Source: Desulfolithobacter dissulfuricans (GTDB lineage Bacteria; Desulfobacterota; Desulfobulbia; Desulfobulbales; Desulfobulbaceae). From it: a stretch of DNA of 64,000 bases. The position numbers and the translations under genes were made by a program. How positions within the stretch are numbered: position 1 is the first letter of the stretch; every line of letters starts with the position of its first letter. A model generated the notes under the pieces. The model searched no databases and was not told the origin of the DNA. It saw only the letters and a list, made by a program, of their open reading frames with translations. The stretch covers positions 2,814,001 to 2,878,000 of the forward strand of contig NZ_AP024233.1 of assembly GCF_025998535.1 (NCBI RefSeq). Direction: 5' to 3'. Positions 33,292 through 34,613 of the stretch are shown here, in pieces.

Positions 33292-34089
33292 TTATGGTTT
33301 GGTTGGATTCATCGGTACCCCGTGGCCAAGTCCGGAGGCCAACAGGGCCAGCAGGCCGGCGGAGCGCTGTTTGAAATCTCTGGAGACAAAACCGGGCTTC
33401 CAGGGCTCCTGCCAGAGCAGATCAGAGACCAGAAAGACCGCGGCCAGCCGCACGCCACGGAAAGCTGCCACCCGGCAGAGGGCCGAGTACTCCATATCCA
33501 CCACCTTGACACCACTGGCTCCATATCGGCGCACCTTGGCCCGGGTCTCCCGGTAGGGTGCATCGGTGGTCCAGCACCGGCCACCATGCCAGGATTCGTC
33601 GCTGCGGTCAAGCAGGGAGGTCAACTGGAGTCGCAGACCATGATCCGGCCCGGTCTCTCCGGAGAGTGGATAATGGACACTTGTACCCTCTTCGCTGAGA
33701 TGGCCTGTGGGCACCACGATATCACCGACCCCGATCTCCCGGACCAGGGATCCGCACCAGCCATAGAGGATAATGTTCCTGGCTCCGAGACCGATGAGTT
33801 TTTCCAGACACAGCACCGCCATGGGTGCGCCGACCGCCGGTCCGGCCAGGAAGAGACCAGCTTCCTGGCCGGCGTAGAGCCGGGAATGGAAGAGAAAATG
33901 CCGCTTGAGACCAAATTTTGCGGCGAGTTGTTCCAGGGCCCGGGCATCGGTTGGATTGACAGCCAGAATGCCGGTGGGCGGCAGCTTTGGTTCCCCCTTG
34001 AGGCGTTCGGGATTCAGGACACATTCATCCGTCCCGGTCGCCGGCCCCACGCCGTTATCCACCTGCTGTCTCTCTTGTCTCAGGCCCAT
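33292..34089 (-). CDS. Nucleoside phosphorylase family protein
   Basis: The 265 residues contain the PNP/UDP phosphorylase fold: 'LEKLIGLGARNIILYGWCGS', 'VGDIVVPTGHLSEEGTSVHY', and 'VVDMEYSALCRVAAFRGVRL', where the Glu binds the ribose in this family. It would split a nucleoside with phosphate; the base is not clear. The start is unsure: the ATG at 34089 has no good ribosome site, and the frame runs on into the inserted repeat at 34109-34280, which probably brought extra codons. Close linkage with rimO suggests co-transcription. Confidence 0.8.
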   Translation of the reverse strand: MGLRQERQQVDNGVGPATGTDECVLNPERLKGEPKLPPTGILAVNPTDARALEQLAAKFGLKRHFLFHSRLYAGQEAGLFLAGPAVGAPMAVLCLEKLIGLGARNIILYGWCGSLVREIGVGDIVVPTGHLSEEGTSVHYPLSGETGPDHGLRLQLTSLLDRSDESWHGGRCWTTDAPYRETRAKVRRYGASGVKVVDMEYSALCRVAAFRGVRLAAVFLVSDLLWQEPWKPGFVSRDFKQRSAGLLALLASGLGHGVPMNPTKP

Positions 34090-34098
34090 GGCGTTATC

Positions 34099-34290
34099 AT
34101 ACCATATTCTGATTACCATCAATCTTCAGCATTGAAGTCGGTGTCGGTCTCACTTGTTCCACGGGACGCCATAAACCCGTCCCTGGGGGCTTGACTGTGG
34201 CCATCCAGGCCACAGACACCCGTGCAACAAGTGAGGCCGACACCTTCATCCATCGGTGGCTGAATTTCAGTGGTAATCATATACCATATT
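34099..34290. mobile_element. MITE-like element with 10-bp target-site duplication
   Basis: The element spans 34109-34280 (172 bp). Both sides carry the same 10 bases, ATACCATATT, at 34099-34108 and 34281-34290. The ends are inverted copies, CTGATTACCA and TGGTAATCAT (9 of 10 match). Inside, arms at 34140-34165 and 34219-34244 pair over 26 bp with two mismatches, and the centre has a second hairpin, CTGTGGC/GCCACAG. No transposase frame is present. It sits between the atpE terminator and the phosphorylase start. Confidence 0.75.
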
Positions 34291-34292
34291 GC

Positions 34293-34325
34293 AAAAAAAA
34301 TGGGGCTGCAGCAAGCTGCAGCCCC
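34293..34325 (-). terminator. Rho-independent terminator of the F0 operon
   Basis: Arms GGGGCTGCAG (34302-34311) and CTGCAGCCCC (34316-34325) form a 10-bp stem with a 4-base loop, followed leftward by T8 (A8 at 34293-34300). It lies 28 bases past the atpE stop. Confidence 0.92.
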
Positions 34326-34352
34326 ACCGGGTCTTCTCTTGTTCCTGTCGGC

Positions 34353-34613
34353 TTACAGGCCGAGAGCCGCCTTGAACGGGTTGGCGTACAGCAGGATAAA
34401 GGAAATAACCAGACCGTAAATGGCGATGGACTCAACGAGAGCCATACCAAGGATCATGGTGGTGGTGATGGCACCTTTTGCTTCGGGGTTGCGGGCAACA
34501 CCAAGACAGGCACCCTCAACACCGGAACCCATACCGATACCAGCGCCGAGACCGGCAAATCCGATGGCGTGGGCAGCGCCGATACATACCAGGGCGAGAT
34601 GAATCTTATCCAT
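34353..34613 (-). CDS. atpE: F0F1 ATP synthase subunit c
   Basis: The 86-residue hairpin protein has two membrane helices joined by the polar loop 'ARNPEAKG' (Arg41), and the ion-binding Glu61 in 'ALVESIAIYG'. Position 28 is Met where sodium-type c subunits have Gln, so proton use is more likely. Glu33 is one helical turn before the place (37) where most c subunits carry Glu; that place is Leu here. It is the last gene of the atpZ-atpI-atpB-atpE unit and is followed by a strong terminator. Confidence 0.96.
   Translation of the reverse strand: MDKIHLALVCIGAAHAIGFAGLGAGIGMGSGVEGACLGVARNPEAKGAITTTMILGMALVESIAIYGLVISFILLYANPFKAALGL

Follow-up and report, generated by a model that had tools for sequence, protein, structure and literature searches.

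The window analysed here, a stretch of 64,000 nucleotides of the Desulfolithobacter dissulfuricans genome, carries between atpE and a nucleoside phosphorylase gene a 174-bp element that we regard, at a probability of roughly 0.9, as a non-autonomous DNA transposon (MITE) with IS1595-type ends. It goes beyond an ordinary MITE, with copies that bear a group II intron and a core that recurs in otherwise different elements of related bacteria. MITEs are usually viewed as decayed leftovers whose insides are irrelevant, whereas in this family the inner part ranks with the most conserved. The features are given below by window coordinates, strand and basis.

33292..34089, - strand: nucleoside phosphorylase family gene (PNP_UDP_1), downstream neighbour (ORF and family match)
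34100..34107, no strand: left copy of the target-site duplication (TSD), TACCATAT, 8 bp (sequence and copy statistics)
34108..34281, + strand: MITE, 174 bp (66 two-ended copies; 40 aligned, flanks unrelated)
34108..34117, + strand: left terminal inverted repeat, TCTGATTACC (sequence; end type as in IS1595-family elements)
34140..34165, + strand: left arm of the long inner hairpin, 26 bp, two mismatches to the right arm (sequence, fold)
34151..34152, + strand: equivalent of the group II intron insertion point of nine other copies, empty in the window copy (sequence compared)
34160..34224, + strand: structured core, 65 nt, match to model R1, conserved in the MITEs of other genera (covariance model)
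34219..34244, + strand: right arm of the long inner hairpin (sequence, fold)
34272..34281, - strand: right terminal inverted repeat, TATGATTACC on the - strand (sequence; IS1595-family end type)
34282..34289, no strand: right copy of the TSD, TACCATAT, 8 bp (sequence and copy statistics)
34293..34328, - strand: atpE terminator, hairpin and T-tract (terminator scan)
34353..34613, - strand: atpE, upstream neighbour, name taken from an earlier note (ORF; homologue beside the phosphorylase in 22 relatives)

The element and its insertion site

The extent of the element was determined from the window sequence and from the comparison of 66 two-ended copies, and its inverted ends read TCTGATTACC at 34108-34117 and GGTAATCATA at 34272-34281. 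Folded as single-stranded DNA, it reaches -51.5 kcal/mol as against a shuffle mean of -22 (SD 3.2, n = 200; z -9.25). The earlier note, made from this sequence, had described the inverted ends and a long imperfect hairpin, had placed the segment between the atpE terminator and the phosphorylase start, and had called it MITE-like and too short for a transposase; all of this agrees with our results, in that 174 bp leave no room for a transposase gene and encode none. Its length of 172 bp has to be amended to 174 bp, with the outermost T and A counted. The perfect 10-bp duplication that it reported is a real repeat, ATACCATATT being present at both 34099-34108 and 34281-34290, but the TSD proper is 8 bp long (TACCATAT), and the two extra repeated bases are the terminal A and T of the MITE itself, whose agreement with the flanks is a coincidence. 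A duplication of 10 or 9 bp was excluded by column statistics over the 66 copies.

The ends of the family are symmetrical and can be written as T[C/G]TGATTACC...GGTAATCA[C/G]A. Because T precedes the left-end C/G in all 66 two-ended copies and the right end finishes with NA, the TSD is 8 bp. It is constant in length and AT-rich, and its two copies agree at 8/8 positions in 45 elements, 7/8 in 11, 6/8 in 7, 5/8 in 2, and 4/8 in 1, i.e., at 7/8 or better in 56 of 66, the imperfect ones numbering 21 (3 of them at 4/8 or 5/8). The MITE of the window would have been inserted through an 8-bp staggered cut at an AT-rich spot just past the atpE terminator. When the second base of the MITE was counted over the 66 copies, the same + strand letter was seen at both ends in 58 (C..C in 40, G..G in 18), and the inverted repeat is therefore mismatched there in a correlated manner.

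The order along transcription is atpE, terminator, MITE, and phosphorylase. The open frame of the phosphorylase extends into the MITE up to 34122, so that the MITE may supply an upstream start codon of this gene; it may also supply the leader. A changed or replaced promoter and leader, which the earlier note had held probable, is putative, and a consensus scan gave no promoter-like sites in the MITE. The atpE-phosphorylase gap is 263 bp, or 81 bp after subtraction of 182 bp (the MITE and one TSD). We fetched the loci of 29 relatives, 22 with and 7 without atpE. None of the 22 has the exact MITE end motif between the genes, and the candidate phosphorylase start follows atpE by 52-83 bp in 15 of them, by 53 or 107 bp in one, and by 206-592 bp in four, with no usable start in two. 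The earlier note had proposed a comparison with an empty site in close relatives; a base-exact empty site is unreadable in these relatives, because the phosphorylases are 48-60% identical.

Copies in the host genome and the intron within them

In the host genome (G000; 3.6 Mb, one contig), at least 40 near-full-length matches of 89-100% identity were found, the window copy included, when 40 of 95 candidates were scored, and the same search gave three more short reverse matches. The left-end pattern has 66 matches in this genome (65 with at most one mismatch) and the right-end pattern 72, while the reversed control patterns of both ends have none. An alignment of the 40 copies showed conserved ends and unrelated flanks. 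Pairing of left and right ends yielded 66 elements, namely 54 of 165-177 bp, nine of ~2.2 kb, and three of 65 bp (leading T counted). A search for copies in this genome and in relatives had been suggested in the earlier note: the 66 two-ended copies, against zero for the controls, answer it for this genome, whereas among relatives the full element is missing (0 of 56 other genomes, the host being alone among the 57 searched) and what is shared more widely is the 65-nt core, present in 16 (the host counted) of 242 genomes from the order. Short partial matches to the MITE were present in four other genomes of the 57. The exact left-end pattern had no match in the genome_contigs or viral_contigs collections, nor did blastn find the MITE in plasmids or phages; these collections may omit records of the host genome or of very near ones.

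Few insertions lie in long open reading frames: of 53 targets, 16 fall in ORFs of at least 200 aa, whereas 656 of 1060 positions drawn at random from the same stretches do so (13 of the 66 sites, with flanks too short, were omitted). Terminator targeting was rejected as a rule: a terminator-like hairpin abuts 13 of 66 targets and 89 of 2314 AT-rich control sites, taken from the same loci in intergenic and coding DNA alike, an enrichment that covers a minority of the targets. The three 65-bp elements (L076, L077, and L078) lack the hairpin and carry duplications, and their junction fits, by eye, a deletion between two TCGG repeats. Six further elements of this genome, L101, L102 (389 bp), L103 (400 bp), L074 (440 bp), L080 (165 bp), and L081 (170 bp), have TGATTACCAC-type ends and other insides, and are apparently other MITE subfamilies.

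As far as the available part of a review goes, prokaryotic MITEs are likewise short and non-coding, with terminal inverted repeats, TSDs, AT-rich intergenic targets, and a stable fold (PMC10969869), and a 102-bp MITE is reported to have 78 copies in Pseudomonas syringae pv. actinidiae (PMC6053426, in part). What sets the present family apart is an inner core that has been conserved in different genera and with two types of ends. IS1595 as a word is absent from the available part of that review (PMC10969869).

Each of the nine ~2.2-kb copies is interrupted by a group II intron, 2025-2026 bp long and always at one position of the arm. In L065 and L066, the two loci scanned, domains V/VI match RF00029 at 46.9 bits (gathering score 40), and the model of domains D1-D4 gives 35.8 bits, under its gathering score of 49. 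The protein encoded in the L065 intron scores 396 bits with TIGR04416 and also matches PF00078 (RVT_1) and PF08388 (GIIM); its best solved relative by sequence is the GsI-IIC RT. Domain V of this intron occurs 12 times in the host genome, nine times at the MITE position and three times elsewhere. Among the latter, the copy in L142 (G000:C1:488800-492200) follows CGGTGTCGGCCTC, with 13 letters in common with the MITE arm; one of the other two has the last ~7 letters of the arm before the insertion point, and the other has little of it. The intron site of L142 reads by eye as a coding stretch.

L066 and L071 have identical introns despite 6 differences between their MITE parts, and L068 and L072 do so despite 16; the introns of the latter two also equal the non-MITE copies L143 and L144. 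Identical introns in MITEs of differing sequence are not predicted by composite transposition and point to repeated independent homing of the intron into MITEs, as far as sequence comparison can tell, with gene conversion as the remaining alternative. The nearest MITE is an intron-free copy for eight of the nine intron-bearing MITEs (L068 being a tie), in a comparison in which intron-free copies are far commoner (54 vs 8). The intron would have spread by retrohoming into MITEs via pairing with the arm sequence. The same logic has been used for introns within introns in Thermosynechococcus elongatus, where identical group II introns occupy one conserved site of diverged mobile-element copies, an IS or another intron, according to the available part of the report (PMC2882425); the host element here is a MITE. 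An association of intron and MITE was also described for the 'MITEtron' of Thiomargarita dsrA, in which, in the accessible text, a group I intron harbours a MITE-like sequence (PMC4853749); in the present case the MITEs are the hosts and the intron is of group II. We found no report of a group II intron with a MITE as its site in the literature searched, which covers few subscription journals. The arrangement amounts to a nested parasite, a group II intron that uses a MITE family as its supply of landing sites.

The transposase partner and the mode of spread

A right-end match in a relative (L051) lies near a gene fragment with an IS1595 zinc ribbon, and the 107-aa N-terminal transposase stretch of this fragment has matches with E values of 1e-20 or better in 20 of the 395 phylum genomes searched. 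Thirty loci emerged when named genomes were scanned; they belong to Desulfobulbales relatives as well as to records of Gamma-, Alpha-, and Betaproteobacteria. At 13 of 37 IS1595 loci, a TGATTACC-type end pair stands 1.0-1.3 kb apart with a TSD of 8/8, in a scan that retained a single best pair from each locus and was run without a random control; 10 of the 13 have exact TGATTACC at both ends, and the remaining pairs have TGATTAGC or TGATTACG at one or both ends. The other 24 loci, many of them partial or cut by contig ends, showed no end pair whose TSD agrees at 8/8. The transposases of L113 and L114 look complete (339 and 314 aa) and match NF033547 at 211 and 208 bits; the ends of these two elements match the MITE ends. 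The transposase with the same ends for which the earlier note had suggested a search therefore exists in other genomes, with the same 8-bp TSD, and together with the many copies in the host genome it upholds the MITE-like reading. One more IS1595-type element, L115 (G352:C17), has identical 22-bp ends starting with TGATTAGCGCC and a TSD of 8/8, a sister end type.

According to the available parts of the respective papers, IS1595 elements usually have 8-bp TSDs and carry an N-terminal zinc finger in all but the IS1016 group (PMC8101967), and ISApl4 has A/T-rich 8-bp direct repeats (PMC12561309). The elements with the present ends resemble this family, to which the eukaryotic Merlin elements are related, in their 8-bp AT-rich TSDs and in encoding zinc-ribbon IS1595 transposases. 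The MITE of the window differs in having no transposase gene within its 174 bp and is therefore an IS1595 derivative rather than a member of the family proper.

The host genome has three IS1595 transposase genes (G000:C1:754371-755168, 2135398-2136195, and 2794370-2795167). None of them is enclosed by a TGATTACC end pair, and a separate MITE copy lies beside one; an autonomous partner in the host genome was rejected on these grounds, and it is likeliest that the family is orphaned there. An IS1595-type transposase absent from this genome would have bound the TGATTACC ends in trans. As a transposase with the MITE ends did not appear in the search of the host genome, present-day mobility is putative.

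We consider it rather unlikely that one of the three resident transposases, instead of a lost partner, moves the MITE in trans. Such an enzyme would be of the same family and in the same genome, and when two of the resident genes are aligned, their identical block has TTCAGCT beside the left end and GCTGAATTT near the right, like the inner part of the MITE ends. This block, however, runs from TATGGCTCTTAAC to GTTAAGAGCCATAT (end letters ATGGCTCTTAAC), not TGATTACC, and the TGATTACC-ended relatives elsewhere encode their own transposase. Spread of the MITE by the reverse transcriptase of the group II intron, as a LINE spreads a SINE, would account for the intron inside nine copies but appears very improbable to us: the same ends are found on the 54 intron-free copies and the three 65-bp elements, the three introns outside MITEs share with the arm at most the letters just before the insertion point, and the MITE ends and TSD fit IS1595-family DNA transposons. 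We give least credence to a non-mobile regulatory or REP-like repeat flanked by short repeats through chance, for which the strong hairpin and the scarcity of targets in long ORFs could be adduced; against it stand the precise ends, the 8-bp duplications at 7/8 or better in 56 of 66 copies, and the existence of transposase-bearing elements with the same end type.

The folded core in several genera

The core is among the most even parts of the MITE, with a majority of ~0.98 per column in 54 host copies as compared with 0.83-0.94 in the arms and 0.93-0.99 in the ends. In L049, from another genus, it is present with other arms and without TGATTACC ends. The covariance model, built from four host cores and L049, has the matches in the order mentioned above in 8 of 68 genera, with at least 21 core matches in each of four genomes. 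Sixty core copies were taken from three of the matched genomes, and 58 of them have TGATTACC-type end pairs (up to two mismatches per end, best pair taken by the script), with a TSD of 7/8 or better in 52 of the 58. Three cores of genus g300 (L218, L219, and L224) lie between GTAACTATTCAG-type ends; their 8-bp flanks agree at 8/8 in one and at 4/8 and 1/8 in the others, so that transposition with this end type rests on one clean case.

L050 (15.7 bits, E 0.15) was set aside as a core relative; in 61 fetched loci the model otherwise recognized L049 alone, itself in the training set. A strict core pattern with up to three mismatches occurs in the host genome alone among 395 genomes of the phylum. 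Core patterns gave no match in viral_contigs and none in phages, and in plasmids there was one weak partial match (E 0.4) and none for another core variant. No Rfam family scored above its gathering score in window positions 33900-34500 or in nine other loci.

The arms around the cores of other genera are unlike those of the window MITE, yet complementary to each other, above all 200 shuffles in 12 of 17 cores and not so in five, one of which is cut by a contig end. An alignment of 13 sequences from 10 genomes and 7 genera, with the weak matches in G450, G528, G589, G596, G601, and G610 omitted, shows both-sided changes in 22 of 36 predicted pairs. Pairing cells amount to 92.7% as against 75.8% in shuffles, and to 46% at most when the partners are slid by one column or more, the structure having been derived from the same alignment that was used to score its pairing. 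Less stands out in the count of further pair types, which 9 of 500 shuffles reach.

The core is dispensable for transposition, because the three coreless 65-bp elements carry duplications, and it would be kept for its action as a folded strand, either RNA or single-stranded DNA. Tentatively, and at somewhat below even odds, we propose that the core is a distinct, so far unnamed noncoding module, made up of a three-way junction with near-fixed loop letters and freely changing complementary outer arms, which may be carried as MITE cargo on TGATTACC- and GTAACTATTCAG-type transposase ends in several genera of one order, be kept as folded RNA or single-stranded DNA, and in one host adjoin the arm at which a group II intron mainly lands. 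The recurrence of one core in several genera, with changing arms and two kinds of ends, makes it possible to test whether bacterial MITEs carry noncoding cargo with a function.

According to the available part of a published account (PMC8604942), arms can be homogenised and spacers inverted through template switching between inverted repeats. Within the host genome, arm covariation is found at three pairs and the core is inverted in L065 and L090, which may reflect this process rather than selection, and the covariation of arms seen from genus to genus could partly have the same cause. Template switching does not explain the fixed loop letters of the core (e.g., ATAAA), which are nearly invariant. 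Letters similar to those described here may also be found in intergenic repeats of Gammaproteobacteria.
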